Position numbers and translations under genes: made by a program | The notes under the pieces: generated by a model | What the model was told of the DNA's origin: nothing | The model's input: the letters and a program-made list of their open reading frames with translations, nothing else | Databases searched by the model: none | Shown here: positions 6,018 to 21,668 of the stretch, piece by piece | Numbering within the stretch: the first letter of the stretch is position 1 | How the letters are laid out: each line of letters begins with the position of its first letter | DNA from: a candidate division TA06 bacterium ADurb.Bin131 | Lineage (GTDB): Bacteria > Ratteibacteria > UBA8468 > B48-G9 > DTJG01 | DNA length: 36,260 nt | Assembly: GCA_002070645.1 (NCBI GenBank) | Contig: MWDQ01000150.1 | Coordinates: forward strand, 1 to 36,260 | Reading direction: 5' to 3'

Positions 6018-6518
6018 TTACCAGTGTTCCCATTTTATAACCTGTTCGACAGTTTTTTTAGGTGGAGAAGGATTTTCTGCTGGATAACCAAGCGCAACAA
6101 TTGATACAAGTTTCCATCCTTCTGGCACACCAATAATCTCAGAAATCACTGATACATATGGTTTTTTATCACCAGCAATCCAGCAGCTTCCAATCCCAAG
6201 AGCGTATGAGGCAAGCAGAATATTCTCGGTTGCAGCACAACCATCTTCAAGATAATACTTTGTATCCTCGCAAAAAACAAGTATACAGACCGCAGCATCC
6301 TTTAAAAATTTCCCATAATCAGTTGCTTCAGATATTTTTCGAAGTGTTTCATTTTTCTTTATCACGACAAACTTCCACGGTTGCAGGTTTCTTGCCGTTG
6401 GTGCAAGTCGCGCACAATCAATAATCTCGTTTATCGTCTGGTTTGATATCTCTTTGTTTTGAAATAACCTGATACTTCTTCTTTTTTTGATTACCTCTAT
6501 AAGATTGTTGTTCGACAT
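6018..6518 (-). CDS. Nitroreductase family FMN-dependent oxidoreductase
   Basis: 166 aa, the size of the short nitroreductase-fold subgroup. KKRRSIRLFQNKEIS at the N-terminus carries the R-R-S-I-R FMN-phosphate motif. LAPTARNLQPWKFVVI is the second FMN-binding segment, and GIGSCWIAG followed by LVSIVALGYPAE forms the third. Such proteins are homodimeric NAD(P)H-dependent reductases of nitro compounds, quinones or enones; the physiological substrate cannot be told from sequence. It follows cobO by 60 bases. BluB, which makes the lower ligand of B12, is a longer relative, and I see none of its distinguishing features, so I do not assign a cobalamin role. GGAGG precedes the ATG. Confidence 0.9.
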   Translation of the reverse strand: MSNNNLIEVIKKRRSIRLFQNKEISNQTINEIIDCARLAPTARNLQPWKFVVIKKNETLRKISEATDYGKFLKDAAVCILVFCEDTKYYLEDGCAATENILLASYALGIGSCWIAGDKKPYVSVISEIIGVPEGWKLVSIVALGYPAENPSPPKKTVEQVIKWEHW

Positions 6519-6578
6519 TTTTCCTCCTTCTAAATTTCAGAAAAAAAATGTTCTGTCTATTACCAATCTGTTTCATTT

Positions 6579-7115
6579 TTAATATTCAATTCCTTTCGAA
6601 GCCTTAATATATGGATATGGATGTTTTATACATCTCATTTCAGTAATAATATCCGCTATCTCGAAAATTGTCTTTGCTCTACCTCTTCCAGTAAGGATTA
6701 TATTCATACCCGGCATCTGTTTTTGTGCCTGTTTAATAAAAGAAAATAGATCTGATTCTTTGATAAGATTATCTCTTATTGCTATAAGAATCTCGTCCAT
6801 CACAAGAAGATCGCAAGATTTGATCTTTCTAAATTGTTTTAAAAAATTGTTCCACTCAACATTGAAAAACTTCTCGAATTCTTTCCTGTTTATATTCTTA
6901 CCTGAAAAGGTTGGATATTTACAGCAAAACATATAAAGTTTACAGCCATCCATCTTTTTTAGAATCTTTATTTCACCGGACAAAGAGTTCTTAAAAAATG
7001 TGCAATAAACAACTCTTTTCCTCCATCCGAGCATTCTAGCTGAACACCCCACTGCGGCAGTTGTTTTTCCTTTGCCATTTCCAGTAAAAATCAAAATAAT
7101 ACCACGATGTTTCAC
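6579..7115 (-). CDS. cobO: Corrinoid adenosyltransferase, CobO/BtuR type
   Basis: 178 aa. The P-loop IFTGNGKGKTTAAVG (residues 9-23) is diagnostic of CobA/CobO/BtuR ATP:cob(I)alamin adenosyltransferases. CDLLVMDEILIAI is the Walker B-like acidic segment, NIILTGRGRA is the third family motif, and the C-terminal EMRCIKHPYPYIKASKGIEY matches the K-H-x-Y-x-x-G-x-x-A-x-x-G-I-E-x tail. It transfers the adenosyl group of ATP to the corrin cobalt. The start codon is GTG, overlapping the TGA of the upstream oxidoreductase as GTGA, so the two are translationally coupled. No cobalamin riboswitch or other corrin gene is visible nearby, which suggests salvage or a corrinoid-dependent enzyme elsewhere. Confidence 0.95.
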   Translation of the reverse strand: MKHRGIILIFTGNGKGKTTAAVGCSARMLGWRKRVVYCTFFKNSLSGEIKILKKMDGCKLYMFCCKYPTFSGKNINRKEFEKFFNVEWNNFLKQFRKIKSCDLLVMDEILIAIRDNLIKESDLFSFIKQAQKQMPGMNIILTGRGRAKTIFEIADIITEMRCIKHPYPYIKASKGIEY

Positions 7116-8176
7116 GTTAATTCCACAGGTCTACCAGTTTCAGCAGACCTGTAAATACCTTCAATAATTTTTACAACAGTTAAAATCTCTTTTGGAGTGG
7201 TAATAGGTTGTGTATTATTTCTAACACAGTTTACAAAATGTTCAATCTCCGCCCGATACGTGTTCACTGGTGGAAATTCAGCAATTGTATCCGTAACCAC
7301 ACCATTCATCTCTCCATATACCCTAAGGGGGGGAGTTGCTTCTGTCCAATACTGAACGCCATTTTTCGTTCCCATAAGAGCAATCTTTAATCCACTTTCA
7401 GAGTTTCCGGCCCAGCTTGCCTCAAGAAAAAGAGTCGCGTTATTATTGAATTTAATAAATCCTGCAGCAAGATCTTCAACATCAAAAACACCTGTTGGTT
7501 TGTCCCCTACCCTGCTCCAGATAGGTGGCCATCCACCGTCAACTGCCTGATTCTTGAATTTATTATAGGTAACCCCAACAACAAGACGGGGGTCAGGACA
7601 TCCCATAAGATAAACAGCAAGATCAAGGATATGAACACCAATATCTATTAGAGGACCTCCTCCTGCTAATTTCTTTGTAGTAAACCATGTCCCCAACCCT
7701 GGAATACCCCTTCGTCTCAAACAGGATGCCTTTGCGAAATATATCTCACCCATCTGGTTGTTTTCAACCATCTTTTTTATAAACTGGCTGTGAGACGCAA
7801 ACCTATGGCAGAATGCAACCATAAACTTATTATTCGTTTGTTGCACTGTGTTAATTATAGATTCTGTTTCTTCAACATTTATTGCAACAGGTTTTTCGCA
7901 TATTACGTGTTTACCGGATTTAAGGGCAGCAATCGATTGTTGTGCATGAAAAGCATTTGGCGAGCATATACTAACAATATCGAGATTTTCATTTATAATA
8001 TTCTCCCAGTTTTCAAATCGCTTCAAGATACCAAACTTCTCTGCAACAAAAGAAAGTTTTGCCTCATTAGGATCGCAGATTGCAACAACCTCTACTTCTG
8101 GTATTGTTTTATATGCTTCTATATGAAAATGAGAAATACCACCAGCACCTATAATCCCAACCTTTATTTTTTTCAT
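7112..8176 (-). CDS. Gfo/Idh/MocA family NAD(P)-dependent oxidoreductase
   Basis: The Rossmann domain starts immediately: KKIKVGIIGAGGISHFHIEAY contains GxGGIxxxH, followed by VAICDP and ISICSPNAFHAQQSI-like strands. HVICEKPVAIN holds the E-K-P signature, with the catalytic-region GGPLIDIGVHILDLAVYLMG (His, Asp, Gly) later. Members oxidise or reduce sugars, inositols or sugar acids, or cleave glycosides by a redox route. The substrate is unknown here. An upstream in-frame ATG at 8263 would add 29 unrelated residues, but ATG 8176 has a textbook CGGAGG site eight bases before it and lies after the predicted promoter, so I use it (354 aa). The pairing with cobO by a 4-base overlap is unexpected. 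Confidence 0.93.
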   Translation of the reverse strand: MKKIKVGIIGAGGISHFHIEAYKTIPEVEVVAICDPNEAKLSFVAEKFGILKRFENWENIINENLDIVSICSPNAFHAQQSIAALKSGKHVICEKPVAINVEETESIINTVQQTNNKFMVAFCHRFASHSQFIKKMVENNQMGEIYFAKASCLRRRGIPGLGTWFTTKKLAGGGPLIDIGVHILDLAVYLMGCPDPRLVVGVTYNKFKNQAVDGGWPPIWSRVGDKPTGVFDVEDLAAGFIKFNNNATLFLEASWAGNSESGLKIALMGTKNGVQYWTEATPPLRVYGEMNGVVTDTIAEFPPVNTYRAEIEHFVNCVRNNTQPITTPKEILTVVKIIEGIYRSAETGRPVELT

Positions 8177-14548: not shown

Positions 14549-15571
14549 TTAAATAATCCTACCCATAATATGAATAAAAGGTGTTATTTCTTTTATAAGT
14601 TTCTCGAACAAATCAAAGGTCAGAGATTGATAGCCATCTGATAATGCTTCTTCTGGCTTTGGATGAACCTCAACTATTAATCCATCTGCCCCTGCTGCGA
14701 CCGCCGCCCTCGACATAGGAATAACAAGTTCTCTTTTTCCTGTACCATGGCTGGGATCAACAAAAACAGGTAGATGACTCTCTTTCTTTAAGACAGGAAT
14801 AGCACTTAAATCAAGACAGTTTCTTGTAAATTGCGAATCAAATGTTCTTATTCCTCGTTCACAGAGTATAACCTGATTATTCCCGGCTTTTAAAATATAC
14901 TCTGCACAACTAAGAAATTCTCCTATTGTTGCCTGGAACCCTCTTTTAAGCATCACCGGTATAGAGGTTCTTCCAACCCTTTCAAGCAATCTATAATTAT
15001 ACATATTTCTTGCGCCAATCTGAAGAATATCAGCAACATCAGCAACAATTTCAACCTCTTCAGGTGCGAGAACTTCTGTGATAACAGGAAGCCCTGTTTC
15101 ATTTTTTACATCCTTTAGTATCGCAAGTCCTTCCTTCCCAAGTCCAACAAAACTATAAGGTGAAGTTCTCGGCTTGTACGCTCCTCCACGTAAAATTTTC
15201 CCATTGTGGTTCTTTATGAATACTGCTGTTGTAAACATCTGATCATAACTTTCAACCGAACAGGGACCTGCTGCTATAACAAAATGTTTATTGTCTATAA
15301 CAATATTTCCAGCAAAAACTGTGGTATCCGCTGGATGAAATTCTCTGGTCACAAGTTTATAATCCTTAAGAATACTTATAACATCTATAACACCAGGAAA
15401 TGATACAAAAACCTCCTCAGATAACTCGCGAGTATCTCCAATAATACCTATTATTATCTTTTCCGTACCTCTGCTAAGGTTAACATCAAAACCGAGCATC
15501 TTGATTTTATCTATAACAGCATTGATATTTTCCTCAGGACATTTTCCATCCATTATAATAATATCCGCCAT
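14549..15571 (-). CDS. aroF: 3-deoxy-7-phosphoheptulonate (DAHP) synthase, class I beta
   Basis: 340 aa. About 85 N-terminal residues form a ferredoxin-like (ACT-like) domain, as in Thermotoga-type DAHP synthases, where it mediates feedback by aromatic amino acids. The catalytic barrel shows [61 protein letters not shown] and the metal-site [11 protein letters not shown]. The enzyme condenses PEP with erythrose 4-phosphate, the first step to chorismate. Its ATG overlaps the pheA stop as TAATG, which couples the committed step of the common pathway to the first step of the phenylalanine branch. Some subgroup members also have KDO8P-synthase-like features, but the N-terminal domain favours DAHP. 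Confidence 0.95.
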
Positions 15572-16647
15572 TAGATATTCCCTTTTGGATAAGAACCAAG
15601 TATCTTAAGAAATGCGCAATTTTTTTCAAGCATTCTGAGTGCTGATTTAACATTATCCTCGTCTTTATGTCCAAGAAAATCCACAAAGAATATGTATTCC
15701 CATGCTTTTTTCTTTGTCGGTCTTGATTCAATGCGTGTAAGATTAATATTGTATTTCTTAAATGGAACAAGCATATCATGAAGTGCTCCAACTCTATCCT
15801 TTATGGAAAACATAATGGACGTTTTGTCATCACCGCTCGGTTTTGCTTCATCCGCACCAATAACAAGAAACCTCGTAACATTTTCCTTAAAATCCTCAAT
15901 ATTCGAGGCAAGAATATTCATATCATAGAGACCAGCAGAAACCTCTGACCCAATCGCAGCGGAAAAATGTTCCTTCCTTGCAAGTTCAACAGCGTATGCA
16001 GTACTTTCTGTTTCAACAAGTGATACATCTCTAATATTATCTTCAAGCCATTTCTGGCATTGAGCAAGTGCTTGAGGATGAGAATAAACCTTTTTTATTT
16101 TATCCAACCTTGTTTCTCTCGAGAGCAAGAAATGATGAATCTCAAGCATAATTTCAGCAGTAATTATCAAATCGCAGTCAATAAACATATCGAGAGTATG
16201 GGTAACCACTCCTTCGGTTGAATTTTCAACTGGTACCACTCCATAATCAGCCCTTTTCTTCTCAACCTCCATAAACACATTTTCAATTGTTCTACAGGAA
16301 ATGTATATATTCTTTTCTCCAAACTGGTACAGAGAGGCCTGATGCGTAAATGTCCCTGCAGGTCCAAAATAAGCAATCTTCAAAGGTTCCCCGAATGACC
16401 TACACACCTTAAAAACCGCGCCCATAACTGTTTCTATATCCTGATTTGAAAGAGGTCCTTTGTTTATCTTCTGAAGTTTCTCGATAATCTTTTTTTCTCT
16501 TGCAGGGTCAAATCTCGGAAAATTTGAAATCTTTTTTACCTCATTTATCTGTTTTACAATACTTGCCCTGCGATTTAATAATTGAATTAAACTTTTATCA
16601 ACATCATCGATTTCGGTTCTCAGAGTATCAAGATCTTTATTTTTCAT
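15571..16647 (-). CDS. pheA: Chorismate mutase/prephenate dehydratase (P-protein)
   Basis: Three domains in 358 aa. Residues 1-85: AroQ-type chorismate mutase ([29 protein letters not shown]). About 88-270: prephenate dehydratase starting [14 protein letters not shown], with [40 protein letters not shown] and the catalytic NVTRFLVIG. About 275-355: ACT domain with [10 protein letters not shown] and the Phe-binding N-L-T-R-I-E-S-R-P. It turns chorismate into phenylpyruvate and is normally inhibited by phenylalanine. An in-frame ATG at 16662 exists, but ATG 16647 forms ATGA with the aroB stop and follows GGGGAG by eight bases, so I prefer it. Confidence 0.97.
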
Positions 16648-17708
16648 TGCCAATCTCCCCATGTTGATATTACTTCTTCAGGTGAAATTTCAACACCTGT
16701 TTTTACAGCACCAACCCTTAAAGGTAAAACAAACCTGATTTTACCCATTTTTACTTTTTTATCATATACAAGAGTATCTGCCACCTTTTTTACGTCTATA
16801 TCTGTTTTAAAAGGAAGAGAAAATTTTTTTACCAGAGATTTAACATCATTAAAAAGTACTTCTGAACAATATCCTTTTTTCATAGAAAGAAATGTTTCTG
16901 CTATCATTCCAAGAGATATGGATTCTCCATGGTTCAGACGTTTACTATTAATCTCTATAGCATGCCCAATTGTATGTCCAAAATTCAGGATCTCCCGGAT
17001 TCCTTTTTTTTCCTGTTCATCTGCTTCTACAACCTTTTTCTTTATTACTATACATTCGTAAACAATTGTGTCAATATATTTTTCAATCTGTGATGGATCG
17101 ATGTCCATTAAAAGATTAAATAATGTTTTACTTCTTATAACCGCATACTTTATTACCTCTGCAATTCCCTGGGATATTTCTTTTTTAGGAAGAGTATCAA
17201 AAGTGGAAAAATCCATAATAACGAAGTATGGCTGATAAAATGTACCAACCAGATTTTTACCCCAGGGCAAATTTATACCCGTCTTTCCTCCAACAGAGGC
17301 ATCTACCTGTGCAAGAAGAGATGTTGGTATAGAAATAAACCTGATACCCCTCAAATAAATTGAAGCAACAAATCCTGCTATGTCGCAAACAACACCACCT
17401 CCAAGTGCTATAATTATATCTGATCTATCCAATCCAAAAAGAGAACATTCTTTAATAATGTCATAAACCGTTTTGATTGTCTTTGATTGTTCACCAGGTT
17501 TTATTTCAACAACCTTTACCTTTTTCTCGCAATTGATAAGTATTGTACGTATTCTCTCTGAATAAAGTTGTCCGACGTTTTTATCAGTAATCACAACAAC
17601 CCTGACCCCGCAGGTGTGCTCTTTCAGCAATTCCCCAATTTTAGAAATAGAGCAACCAAGGTAAACAGGATATCTTTTTTGTTTAAGATTCACCACTATT
17701 TTTTTCAT
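16644..17708 (-). CDS. aroB: 3-dehydroquinate synthase
   Basis: 354 aa. NAD-binding IIALGGGVVCDIAGFVAS, then FISIPTSLLAQVDASVGGKT, GINLPWGKNLVGTFYQP, and the zinc ligands in the Glu-rich middle and LNFGHTIGHAIE are all present. It cyclises DAHP to 3-dehydroquinate, the second step of the shikimate pathway. It is the first gene of a six-gene minus-strand operon (aroB, pheA, aroF, glycoside hydrolase, alcohol dehydrogenase, ribF) whose members overlap or nearly touch. ATG follows TCAGGAG. A good promoter lies 39-67 bases upstream. Confidence 0.98.
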   Translation of the reverse strand: MKKIVVNLKQKRYPVYLGCSISKIGELLKEHTCGVRVVVITDKNVGQLYSERIRTILINCEKKVKVVEIKPGEQSKTIKTVYDIIKECSLFGLDRSDIIIALGGGVVCDIAGFVASIYLRGIRFISIPTSLLAQVDASVGGKTGINLPWGKNLVGTFYQPYFVIMDFSTFDTLPKKEISQGIAEVIKYAVIRSKTLFNLLMDIDPSQIEKYIDTIVYECIVIKKKVVEADEQEKKGIREILNFGHTIGHAIEINSKRLNHGESISLGMIAETFLSMKKGYCSEVLFNDVKSLVKKFSLPFKTDIDVKKVADTLVYDKKVKMGKIRFVLPLRVGAVKTGVEISPEEVISTWGDWQ

Positions 17709-17816: not shown

Positions 17817-17822
17817 TAATTG

Positions 17823-19106
17823 ATGAAATTCATAGTAAAAAAAACAAAATCACTTACTGGAACAGCAGAAATACCGGGTAGCAAATCGCATACAATCAGA
17901 GCAATTGTTATTGCCTCTCTCGCGCAGGGGCAATCAAAGATTTTTAAACCCCTCGAATCAGAAGACACAATGGCAGCAGTAAATGCTTGCAAATGTCTCG
18001 GTGCAGAAATAAACACAGAAAAAAAATACTGGACAATAAAGGGCTTTTCCGGCACACCATTAATTCCTTCATCGGGTTACCTCGATCTAAAAAATTCTGG
18101 AACTTCCTTCAATCTTATTTGTGGAGTTGTTTCTCTCGGTCATTTTGAAGTTATCCTTGACGGGGATAATTCGCTTAGAAGTAGACCGGTTGAACCACTT
18201 CTTACTGCATTAAGAAATATTGGCGCGCAAGCAGTATCAATAAATGGAAATGGAAAACCTCCTGTTAAAATTAAAGGTAGGATAAAAGGCGGAGAAACTA
18301 CTGTGGATGGAATAAATTCTCAATTCTTATCCTCTCTTCTTATATCAAGTCCTCTTGCTGATAATAACACTGAAATTACTGCTGTTAATCTTCATGAAAA
18401 GCCATATGTGAAAATGACATTGAGGTGGCTCGACGAGCAAAAAATACATTATGAGAAAAATGAGGATCTTTCACATTTCATTGTTTGGGGAAACCAATCA
18501 TATAGACCATTTAAAAAACGAATACCAGGCGATTGGAGTTCTGCAACATTTCCTCTTGTGGCAGCAGCAATAACAAAATCAGAAATTCTTATAAAAGGCC
18601 TTGATTTAAATGATGACCAGGGAGATAAAAAGGTTATTGATTATCTGAGAAACGCAGGTGCAGTTATTAACAATAGCCCGGAAGGAATAAGAATAAAAGG
18701 AGACCTGCTTAAAGGTCTTGAAATAGACCTCAACGAAACGCCAGATGCTCTTCCTGCACTTAGTGTAATGGGATGTATGGCCGAAGGAATCACAGTTCTT
18801 AAAAATGTCCAGCAGGCACGTATCAAAGAAACCGATCGTATCAGTGTGATGTCAGAAGAACTCACAAAAATGGGTGCAGATATAAAGGAAATGGAAGACG
18901 GATTGATAATCCGAAAAAGCAATCTTAAAGGTGCAACTGTTAATGGACACAAAGACCACAGGGTGGTAATGGCCTTAACACTTGCAGGACTTATAGCCGA
19001 AGGTACAACCATAATAACAACTGCAGAATCAGTTTCGGTAACATTCCCGGGATTTTTAGAGATGATGAAAAATCTTGGTGCAAACATAGAAGTCGTTAAA
19101 GAATAA
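17823..19106 (+). CDS. aroA: 3-phosphoshikimate 1-carboxyvinyltransferase (EPSP synthase), atypical
   Basis: 427 aa. AEIPGSKSHTIRAI supplies the PEP/shikimate-phosphate Lys and Ser, LRSRPVEPLLTALRNIGA the conserved R-P, INSQFLSSLLIS the Gln, ETPDALPALSVMG the catalytic Asp, RIKETDRISVMSEEL and DHRVVMALTLAG the C-terminal signatures. It joins PEP to shikimate 3-phosphate. The usual N-A-G-T-A-M-R loop reads NSGTSFNLI (about residues 90-98), replacing the otherwise highly conserved Arg by Asn, so this belongs to a divergent class. A TTG at 17820 is in frame, but ATG 17823 coincides with the predicted transcription start. aroC follows after 30 bases. Confidence 0.94.
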   Translation: MKFIVKKTKSLTGTAEIPGSKSHTIRAIVIASLAQGQSKIFKPLESEDTMAAVNACKCLGAEINTEKKYWTIKGFSGTPLIPSSGYLDLKNSGTSFNLICGVVSLGHFEVILDGDNSLRSRPVEPLLTALRNIGAQAVSINGNGKPPVKIKGRIKGGETTVDGINSQFLSSLLISSPLADNNTEITAVNLHEKPYVKMTLRWLDEQKIHYEKNEDLSHFIVWGNQSYRPFKKRIPGDWSSATFPLVAAAITKSEILIKGLDLNDDQGDKKVIDYLRNAGAVINNSPEGIRIKGDLLKGLEIDLNETPDALPALSVMGCMAEGITVLKNVQQARIKETDRISVMSEELTKMGADIKEMEDGLIIRKSNLKGATVNGHKDHRVVMALTLAGLIAEGTTIITTAESVSVTFPGFLEMMKNLGANIEVVKE

Positions 19107-19136: not shown

Positions 19137-20291
19137 ATGCTCGGTAATACATTTGGAAGATTGTTCAGAATTACAACATGCGGAGAATCATATGGAAAGG
19201 GTAAAGGTTCAGGGCTTGCAGTAATTGTTGATGGTGTTCCACCAGGTCTTAAGATAACCCGAGATGTCATACAAAAAGAACTTGACAAAAGAAAACCAGG
19301 AGTGGGAAAACTTAATAGTCCGCGAAAAGAGACTGACCGATGTGAAATTTTTGCGGGTATTGGACAGGATGGGGTTACAACAGGTGCTCCCCTGGGAATA
19401 ATCATATACAATGTTGATACAAAAAAAGTACACGTCGAACAATACCGTTCTTATAAAGATATTTTTAGACCAGGACATGCAACGTACTCATTCTTCCTGA
19501 AGTACGGAGAATATCAGGATTGGTGCGGTGCTGGAAGAGCGTCTGGTAGAGAGACAGTTGCAAGGGTAGCAGGTGGTGCGGTGGCTAAATTTATACTTGC
19601 AAGAGAAGGAGTAGAAATTCTTGCATATACAAAAGAGTGTATGGGTATCAGGTGTAAAGACATGAAATTTGAAGAAATAAAAAGAAATTATAGAAAAAAT
19701 GAGATAAACTGTCCGGATCTTTCTGCAGCAAAAAAAATGGAAGAAAAGGTTCTTGAAATAAAAAATCAAGGAGATACAGCAGGGGGTATTATTGAAGTAA
19801 TTGCTCATAATGTTCCGCCAGGACTTGGAGAACCGGTCTTTGATAAAATGAATGCCTTGATTGCTCATGCACTTTGCAGTATTGGTGCAGTAAAAGGGAT
19901 TGAATTTGGAGCAGGGTTTAACGTTGGAAGAATGAAAGGGTCTGAAAATAATGATCAACCGTATTTGACCCCTGATGGCAGAATCAGGTTTAAAACAAAC
20001 AATGCAGGGGGAACTCTCGGGGGGATAACAAATGGAGAAGATATAGTTGTAAGAATTGCAGTCAAACCAACACCAACAATTTCAATAGGACAAACATCAA
20101 TTAATATGAGAACAATGAAAGAAGAACATCTCGAGCCAATTACAAGAAGAGACCCTACACTTCTTGGCAGGATTTATGCTGTTGCTGAAGCAATGATAGC
20201 ATGCGCAATACTTGATGCTTTGTATATGGCCCGGGCTTATGATGCCATTGCGAATCTTGATAAAAAATGGCTAAATCTAAAATATCGTTAA
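19137..20291 (+). CDS. aroC: Chorismate synthase
   Basis: 384 aa, normal length. The N-terminal GNTFGRLFRITTCGESYGKG, the DGVPPGL segment, RPGHATYSFFLKYG, GAGRASGRETVARVAGGAVA, the DTAGGIIEVIAHNVPPGLG segment and NNAGGTLGGITNGEDI are the family signatures. The active-site His in the usual G-E-S-H-G motif is Tyr here (C-G-E-S-Y-G); in well-studied enzymes that His protonates reduced FMN, so this is a real deviation. The later R-R-D-P motif near 340 is intact. The enzyme converts EPSP to chorismate using reduced FMN. A GGAGG site precedes the ATG. Its 3' end overlaps the antisense shikimate-kinase-like gene by 15 bases. Confidence 0.96.
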   Translation: MLGNTFGRLFRITTCGESYGKGKGSGLAVIVDGVPPGLKITRDVIQKELDKRKPGVGKLNSPRKETDRCEIFAGIGQDGVTTGAPLGIIIYNVDTKKVHVEQYRSYKDIFRPGHATYSFFLKYGEYQDWCGAGRASGRETVARVAGGAVAKFILAREGVEILAYTKECMGIRCKDMKFEEIKRNYRKNEINCPDLSAAKKMEEKVLEIKNQGDTAGGIIEVIAHNVPPGLGEPVFDKMNALIAHALCSIGAVKGIEFGAGFNVGRMKGSENNDQPYLTPDGRIRFKTNNAGGTLGGITNGEDIVVRIAVKPTPTISIGQTSINMRTMKEEHLEPITRRDPTLLGRIYAVAEAMIACAILDALYMARAYDAIANLDKKWLNLKYR

Positions 20292-20783
20292 CATTTTCTG
20301 GATAGTGTCAGTGGCTTCTTCTGGGGTAAGAAAAGATGTATCAATAATTCTATCTGCAAAATTTGAAAAATCCTGTTCTTTCAACATCTGTCTTATTTGG
20401 GTTAATGCATCCTTTTTTTTTAATAGATCCTTGCTCTCTTTGCCTGGATACAGACGAAGTAAAATTATTGATAGTTCTGCAGTAAGCCATATGATAAGAC
20501 CATTTGATTTAAATCGCTCGCGATTCTTCTTGTCAGAAAGGATATCTGGTGTAATGGATATTATACACTCTTCATTGGATGCAACTTCGCTCACTATTTG
20601 GTTTTGGAGTTTTCTGATATAATCAATACCTTTAATCTGAACAATATGTATAAACCTATCCTTTTCTCTTTCTTCAATAATCTGCTCTATATCGAAAAAC
20701 TTTCTTCCAAGACGCTCTGAAAGAATACTACCGATCTCTTTCCTCCATGTACCATTAAAACCTGCAAGAATAATTTTCAACAC
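20277..20783 (-). CDS. Shikimate kinase homologue with degenerate ATP-binding loop
   Basis: 168 aa that align over their whole length with AroK: strand plus loop (LAGFNGTWRKEIG, residues 6-18), LSERLGRKFFDIEQIIE, an I-R-K-L-Q helix matching F-R-x-x-E, IISITPDI where AroK has the G-G-G loop (78-80), KSNGLIIWLTAELSIILLRL, and ADRIIDTSFLTPEEATDTI at the end. But Walker A G-x-x-G-x-G-K-S/T has become G-F-N-G-T-W-R-K, the glycine triplet is T-P-D, the shikimate-binding D-x-D is D-x-E, and the lid/adenine Arg region (R-x-P-L-Y) is lost. The frame is intact, so this is a retained, diverged protein rather than decay. It follows aroE by nine bases. It is probably not an active kinase; a regulatory or scaffolding role is speculation. 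Confidence 0.8.
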   Translation of the reverse strand: MLKIILAGFNGTWRKEIGSILSERLGRKFFDIEQIIEEREKDRFIHIVQIKGIDYIRKLQNQIVSEVASNEECIISITPDILSDKKNRERFKSNGLIIWLTAELSIILLRLYPGKESKDLLKKKDALTQIRQMLKEQDFSNFADRIIDTSFLTPEEATDTIQKMLTIF

Positions 20784-20792
20784 AATCCTCTA

Positions 20793-21668
20793 CTATTTCT
20801 TTCCGTTTTTCCTGTAATCACCTATGGCCTTTTTCATTATTTCAACCGGTGCATCAATGCCTGTCCAGAGTGTAAATGAAACTGCCCCCTGAAAAATTAG
20901 CATAGATAAACCATCAAGACATCTTATTCCACGTTTTAAAGATGTCTCTATGAGGTTTGTTTTCCTGTTATAAACAATATCGTAAACAAATATATTTTCA
21001 CTAAGATTTTTCTCTTCTACAAGAATTATATTATCCTCATTCATTCCGATAGAAGTTGTATTAATAACAAGATCCACATTTTTCCATAGAGAAGGATGGT
21101 TTCTTTTCTTAAATTGTACAATCTCGATATTTTCAAAACCAAAATGTTTTTTTAAATGATTCTTCAGCATAACTGCCTTTTCATATGTTCGATTACAGAT
21201 AATCAGATTTGAGATCCCCGCTTTAACAAGGGTTCCAGAAAGAGCAAAAGCAGAACCTCCAGAACCAAACATAAAAACATTTTTTCCTGCAGGGTCAAAT
21301 CCACCGTCCTCTTTTAAGGAACGCAAAAATCCAATCCCATCTGTTGTATAACCTTTCAAGATACCGTTTTCATTGACAATTGTATTTGCAACCCCGAGAA
21401 GGTTTACATCATCATCAACAGAATCCACATATTGAGGTACATTTTTCTTATGAGGAATTGTAATGTTTATTCCCTTAATAGAAAATACTCTTATCGCGTC
21501 AACCGCCTTCCCGAGATTTTCAGGATTAACCTCAAACGGAATATAAACCCAGTTAAGCCCAGAATACAAAAATGCAGCATTTTGAAAAACAGGAGATAGA
21601 GAATGCTTCACGGGCCATCCAAAAACACCTGTAATTGTAGTTTCACCGGTTATTTGCATTTTATCCAT
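20793..21668 (-). CDS. aroE: Shikimate dehydrogenase
   Basis: 291 aa. GVFGWPVKHSLSPVFQNAAF binds shikimate through the Ser pair. INITIPHKKNVPQYVD carries the catalytic Lys, and ANTIVNENGILKGYTTDGIGF the catalytic Asp. The NADP domain starts at FMFGSGGSAFALSGTL (a glycine-rich loop with Ser-Ala), followed by INTTSIGMN and VYDIVYNRKTNLIE. It reduces 3-dehydroshikimate. Two ATGs, 21668 and 21659, are possible and neither has a clear ribosome site. It is the first gene of a two-gene unit with the degenerate kinase, and divergent from parA. Confidence 0.96.
   Translation of the reverse strand: MDKMQITGETTITGVFGWPVKHSLSPVFQNAAFLYSGLNWVYIPFEVNPENLGKAVDAIRVFSIKGINITIPHKKNVPQYVDSVDDDVNLLGVANTIVNENGILKGYTTDGIGFLRSLKEDGGFDPAGKNVFMFGSGGSAFALSGTLVKAGISNLIICNRTYEKAVMLKNHLKKHFGFENIEIVQFKKRNHPSLWKNVDLVINTTSIGMNEDNIILVEEKNLSENIFVYDIVYNRKTNLIETSLKRGIRCLDGLSMLIFQGAVSFTLWTGIDAPVEIMKKAIGDYRKNGKK

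Follow-up and report, generated by a model that had tools for sequence, protein, structure and literature searches.

The locus analyzed here raises the question of how shikimate is activated in a bacterium whose shikimate kinase homologue has no P-loop. Descriptions of the pathway take the shikimate kinase step as invariable; to our knowledge, a single substitute has been described, that of archaea. In candidate division TA06 bacterium ADurb.Bin131, the homologue (hereafter SKL) belongs to an aro cluster of the window, i.e. the whole stretch of 36,260 nucleotides that was analyzed (contig MWDQ01000150.1). The genes of this cluster are:

14549..15571, minus strand: DAHP synthase (Pfam)
15571..16662, minus strand: pheA, chorismate mutase / prephenate dehydratase (Pfam)
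16644..17708, minus strand: aroB, 3-dehydroquinate synthase (Pfam)
17820..19106, plus strand: aroA, divergent EPSP synthase, 'type 1' (Pfam, alignment)
19137..20291, plus strand: aroC, divergent chorismate synthase, 'type 1' (Pfam, alignment, tree), convergent with SKL, the 3' ends overlapping by 15 bp
20277..20783, minus strand: SKL, putative AroK-derived pseudokinase of 168 aa with a GTG start
20793..21668, minus strand: aroE, shikimate dehydrogenase (Pfam), 9 bp upstream of SKL on the same strand

The ORF encoding SKL is genuine and its frame is open over 168 aa. The protein exceeds the gathering cut-off of the Pfam SKI family (PF01202; E = 8.8e-22, 78.4 vs 22.1 bits) over the whole domain (residues 16-165). 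Since this match opens at profile position 7, the P-loop is the unmatched part of SKL. The NCBIfam shikimate kinase equivalogs match it weakly and none of their cut-offs is reached (best 84.7 vs 204 bits). The shikimate kinase fold is retained (AlphaFold AF2 model with a mean pLDDT of 90.8), and the top PDB matches of the model in Foldseek are AroK structures (TM 0.72-0.85). Pfam, alignment, AF2 and Foldseek thus agree with the first-pass annotation, which had described a full-length AroK homologue with several active-site residues replaced. This annotation had also presented SKL as the only shikimate kinase-like gene of the window; it is the single SKI-family gene of the whole genome. The alignment locates the former motifs as follows:

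20739..20762, minus strand: former Walker A loop, GFNGTWRK (residues 8-15) in place of GxxGTGKS/T (test pattern GxxxxGK[ST])
20685..20696, minus strand: former DxD motif, FDIE, with the second Asp replaced by Glu (D31-I-E33, a mild change; DIE or DLE in 7/7 genus orthologues)
20544..20552, minus strand: former GGG shikimate/Walker B loop, TPD (T78-P79-D80; xPD in 7/7 genus orthologues, P79 and D80 being invariant)
20430..20444, minus strand: former lid, GKESK, without the RPLL motif and its Arg (Ser117 here, Ser/Gly across the genus orthologues)
20370..20381, minus strand: former C-terminal Arg site, KEQD (Gln137 here, Gln/His across the genus orthologues)

D31 survives in SKL, and so does the Arg of the FR motif, which binds the shikimate carboxylate in other kinases (R58). 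The latter is Arg in 6/7 orthologues and Lys in G001, and is therefore not fixed in the genus; it was absent from the list of residues given by the first-pass annotation. SKL might still act as a shikimate kinase through a non-Walker nucleotide site or with another phosphoryl donor, and the retention of the fold, D31, E33 and, in most orthologues, the FR-motif Arg would be consistent with this. However, the Gly-Lys-Ser/Thr of Walker A, the GGG loop, the lid Arg and the C-terminal Arg have been lost together. Furthermore, related proteins of a sister family (f3, see below) have lost the shikimate site instead, and related genomes lack the gene altogether yet carry aroC and aroE. We therefore regard a persisting kinase function of SKL as very improbable.

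Orthologues of SKL are encoded by six more genomes of the genus and share 54-74% identity with the window protein. All seven proteins carry G-F-[NK]-G-T-W-R-[KR] and have the other motif losses in common. Hence, GTWR is fixed (7/7), but the complete GFNGTWRK, whose fixation had been put forward as a check, is not, since N/K and the final K/R vary. Selection was another proposed check: NG86 dN/dS is 0.09-0.14 (about 0.1) for the orthologue pairs with unsaturated dS, indicating purifying selection, and 60 of the 168 positions are invariant across the seven orthologues. An intact P-loop in close relatives, which would have pointed to recent decay or a sequencing error, was not found in the genus; it was found in G011 of f3, in which the shikimate-binding residues are missing instead. 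The loss of motifs in SKL is not decay: seven open frames with GTWR, their 54-74% identity and a dN/dS of about 0.1 rule out a decaying gene or an assembly error, the probability of which is negligible.

In the tree, the SKL proteins of the genus and the f3 proteins form one clade (99/92) that arises from within the canonical AroKs of this class; a long stem (1.14) leads to the SKL of the genus. This indicates that an ordinary AroK turned into SKL. The second Asp, the GGG loop and the FR Arg are missing from both f3 proteins; the P-loop is intact in G011 (GTGKS) and altered in G013 (GTGKR). The shikimate site is thus gone with the P-loop intact in one case, and, in the genus, the ATP site has been lost too, an order that would fit shikimate having been dropped first as a substrate. 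SKL lies directly 3' of aroE in 9/9 genomes that carry it, the two f3 genomes included.

The first-pass annotation had called for a genome-wide search for a second aroK or a GHMP-type shikimate kinase, and this search found neither. No second SKI gene was detected in the 93%-complete window genome; weak SKI matches at C150:79.6k and 89.9k correspond to cmk and adk. Neither the window genome nor any of its 40 relatives (41 genomes in all) encodes a GHMP shikimate kinase of the archaeal type (TIGR01920) over the cut-off. The window genome has only two GHMP genes, ispE and thrB, the latter adjoining hom. It could be proposed that ThrB, the homoserine kinase, also phosphorylates shikimate in this genus, like its archaeal cousins, as window ThrB scores 61 bits with TIGR01920 and all TIGR01920 matches at E<=1e-6 among the 41 genomes come from AroK-less ones. 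However, window ThrB misses the shikimate kinase cut-off (126.85 bits) and meets that of thrB (208.8 vs 168.25 bits). Moreover, ThrB is missing from AroK-less G008, G019 and G020, and is therefore no general substitute; it is present in AroK-plus G016. This role of ThrB is thus very improbable.

Other candidates were sought in the relatives. Among these draft genomes, seven of the class (G008, G009, G010, G012, G019, G020 and G027) have no full-length SKI gene but possess aroC and aroE; for instance, the aro set of G012 comprises aroB, pheA, DAHP synthase, aroA, aroC and aroE. No AAA_33-type P-loop kinase common to the AroK-less genomes was evident, and no new kinase gene was found beside aroA, aroC or aroE in more than 10 of them. 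The neighbors of aro genes in the AroK-less relatives are xerD, ligA, parA, leuS, pckG, purC and genes for Gfo/Idh, CobO and nitroreductase. Judging from gene content, shikimate activation in these bacteria is independent of AroK. Given the fixed GTWR-type loss, purifying selection and the lack of a second SKI or GHMP kinase in these searches, the role of AroK is probably gone and SKL is probably otherwise employed. This part of the initial interpretation is supported. By contrast, the accompanying statement that the aro cluster is otherwise functional finds no support in that form: the neighboring AroA and AroC carry fixed, unusual active-site substitutions that had been missed:

18093..18113, plus strand: AroA NSGTSFN (Asn for E. 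coli R100; alignment)
18393..18407, plus strand: AroA HEKPY (Glu for E. coli S197, fixed in type-1 AroA; alignment)
19182..19196, plus strand: AroC GESYG for the invariant GESHG (acid His replaced by Tyr; alignment), followed by a 4-aa insertion
20142..20156, plus strand: AroC TRRDP for GRHDP (alignment)

Type-1 AroC and AroA are clear members of their families, like the canonical enzymes. However, the window AroC lacks the invariant acid His of canonical chorismate synthase. In type-1 AroC and in another group (type 3), Tyr replaces the His of GESHG in all readable sequences and TRRD replaces GRHD; every other aligned chorismate synthase has GESHG. Described as conserved in all known species, this His (His17 of the Neurospora enzyme, His11 of that of M. 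tuberculosis) has been proposed to protonate the leaving phosphate (PMC2386126). AroC retains the Arg residues of the SxRET and xRxDP motifs; by our own mapping, they would correspond to R129 and R354, which form salt bridges with the 3-phosphate (PMC11633415). The altered AroCs form a single clade (100/99) inside the GESHG tree. Those of AroK-less genomes are either type 1, 79-91% identical to the window AroC, or type 3 (38-39%; G003, G007, G010 and G020). The type-3 AroCs (446 aa) are encoded away from the aro cluster (L091:6597-7937, L098:695-2026, L095:2327-3658 and L088:8452-9789) and display GGSYQ, as well as FSGRYT for SSARET; in G003, type 3 seems to have replaced type 1. Furthermore, the AroK-plus genomes G014 and G026 (loci L099 and L231) have a Bacillus-type AroC in the order aroC-aroK-aroB, which indicates that the AroK-less relatives exchanged their AroC and did not modify it in situ.

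The window AroA likewise departs from canonical class I EPSP synthase, in which R100 and S197 are found. Among 18 type-1 AroAs (from 16 class members, G243 and G298; AroA was unreadable in the type-3 AroC genomes G007, G010 and G020), S197 is Glu in 18/18 and R100 is Asn, or Ser in G243. S197 is presumably part of the site for shikimate 3-phosphate and in contact with the phosphate. Type-1 AroA retains K340 and S170 and, where readable, the PEP-site residues K22, R124, D313, E341, R344 and R386. R100 is present in the AroAs of AroK-plus G014 and G016, whose residue 197 is Thr/Ser. We found no literature on AroA S197 or on the shikimate pathway in Omnitrophota/Ratteibacteria.

In this class, a divergent AroC is found where AroK is lost or degenerate, and AroA is altered as well wherever it is readable. 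All 15 genomes with the Tyr motif in AroC are devoid of an intact AroK, and GESHG is found in all 8 in which AroK is intact and the N-terminus of AroC readable; the exception is G032, which has GESHG and in which no AroK was found. The association between AroC motif and AroK status is significant (Fisher p = 1.2e-5) when genomes are counted as if unrelated. Outside the class, type-1 AroC was found in four of 386 sampled genomes (65-76% identity); below this, identity is at most 53% and the motif is GESHG again. In G243 and G298, aroA, aroC and aroE are clustered with no kinase gene among them. G248 encodes, about 4 kb from its type-1 aroC, a SKI domain fused to NusG and KOW domains (L274:14202-15224). 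In this domain, the P-loop is intact, but the second Asp and GGG are missing. As it groups in the tree with the AroK of G121, a canonical one, it represents another case, independent of SKL, of a degenerate shikimate kinase beside a type-1 AroC. Its fusion to antiterminator domains (NusG/KOW) suggests a regulatory use.

These co-occurrences could indicate that type-1 AroA and AroC use shikimate without a 3-phosphate, or with some different activation. As such a pair would need no shikimate kinase, AroK would decay wherever the pair is present. Several data agree with this: AroK loss tracks the altered AroC (15/15 vs 8/8), AroC lacks the His that has been proposed as proton donor to the leaving phosphate (His17; PMC2386126), all type-1 AroAs have Glu for S197 and lack R100, and no kinase gene accompanies the pair, in other lineages too. 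The AroC change, and probably those of AroA, sit where the 3-phosphate is handled. However, AroA keeps K340 and S170, and AroC keeps both Arg residues that, in our mapping, match the 3-phosphate-binding R129 and R354 (PMC11633415). Moreover, Tyr is also able to act as an acid, and, since type-1 AroC belongs to a clade that is divergent and has spread horizontally, something else may underlie its changes. Altered chemistry is thus possible but unlikely. Its broader form, a chorismate pathway without shikimate 3-phosphate in which a horizontally mobile AroA/AroC pair makes AroK dispensable in several lineages and the remnant becomes a regulator, is unlikely too.

Displacement by another kinase is more likely than altered chemistry; it is the conservative reading, given that the Arg residues of SxRET and xRxDP persist in AroC and K340 in AroA. 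We consider it probable that SKL is a vertically inherited AroK turned pseudokinase and kept for another role, while shikimate phosphorylation has been displaced in this lineage. SKL would no longer phosphorylate shikimate, and would be maintained under purifying selection because it has another job in the operon of aroE, most likely that of a metabolite sensor or of an AroE partner with a regulatory or structural function. It may have been free to change because the lineage has the divergent AroA/AroC pair and another way past shikimate phosphorylation. In the simplest version, this would be a further, non-homologous shikimate kinase. The position of SKL supports the pseudokinase reading as a whole: SKL follows aroE, whereas canonical AroK sits between aroC and aroB (G014 and G026). 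The absence of a replacement kinase among GHMP genes, AAA_33-type proteins and aro neighbors counts against it, as does the survival of D31 and, mostly, of the FR-motif Arg.

SKL resembles AroK/AroL (PF01202) in its entire fold, its length and its sequence-based family membership, and descends from an AroK of this class; it differs by the replacement of Walker A, GGG and both Arg residues (lid and C-terminal) and by its location behind aroE, not beside aroB. The closest parallel in plants is SKL1/SKL2, shikimate kinase homologues without kinase activity that were kept for a new role (PMC2593004), a loss of activity that is predicted for SKL. However, SKL1 of plants retains its P-loop, and an active shikimate kinase is still present in plants, whereas the P-loop is gone here and no active shikimate kinase is known in the genome. 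SKI domains also serve sensing or regulation, as in BoxR/PRK08154 (HTH + SKI) and in the fungal quinate repressors derived from AROM. SKL scores 52.7 bits on NF006015 but, unlike these regulators, has no DNA-binding domain; its analogue in G248 is a NusG fusion. The archaeal GHMP shikimate kinase is the known non-orthologous replacement of AroK, but none exceeds the TIGR01920 cut-off in the 41 genomes. As for the next two enzymes, type-1 AroC differs from the canonical one by GESYG and TRRDP, and type-1 AroA by N/S100 and E197.

Hence, several genomes keep aroC and aroE (and aroB, aroA and pheA where the cluster is readable) with no recognizable shikimate kinase. Since the next two enzymes are altered as well, a textbook step of aromatic amino acid synthesis must proceed differently in this lineage. 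Either a further kind of shikimate kinase exists or the chemistry after shikimate differs. Glyphosate targets an enzyme of the chorismate pathway, and either answer would alter the annotation of this pathway and bear on that enzyme.

The window also encodes, at 6018-8176, a nitroreductase, a CobO-like ATP:corrinoid adenosyltransferase and a Gfo/Idh oxidoreductase. This trio, absent from the AroK-plus loci examined, lies in whole or in part beside aro genes in AroK-less G008, G009, G012, G015, G019 and G024.
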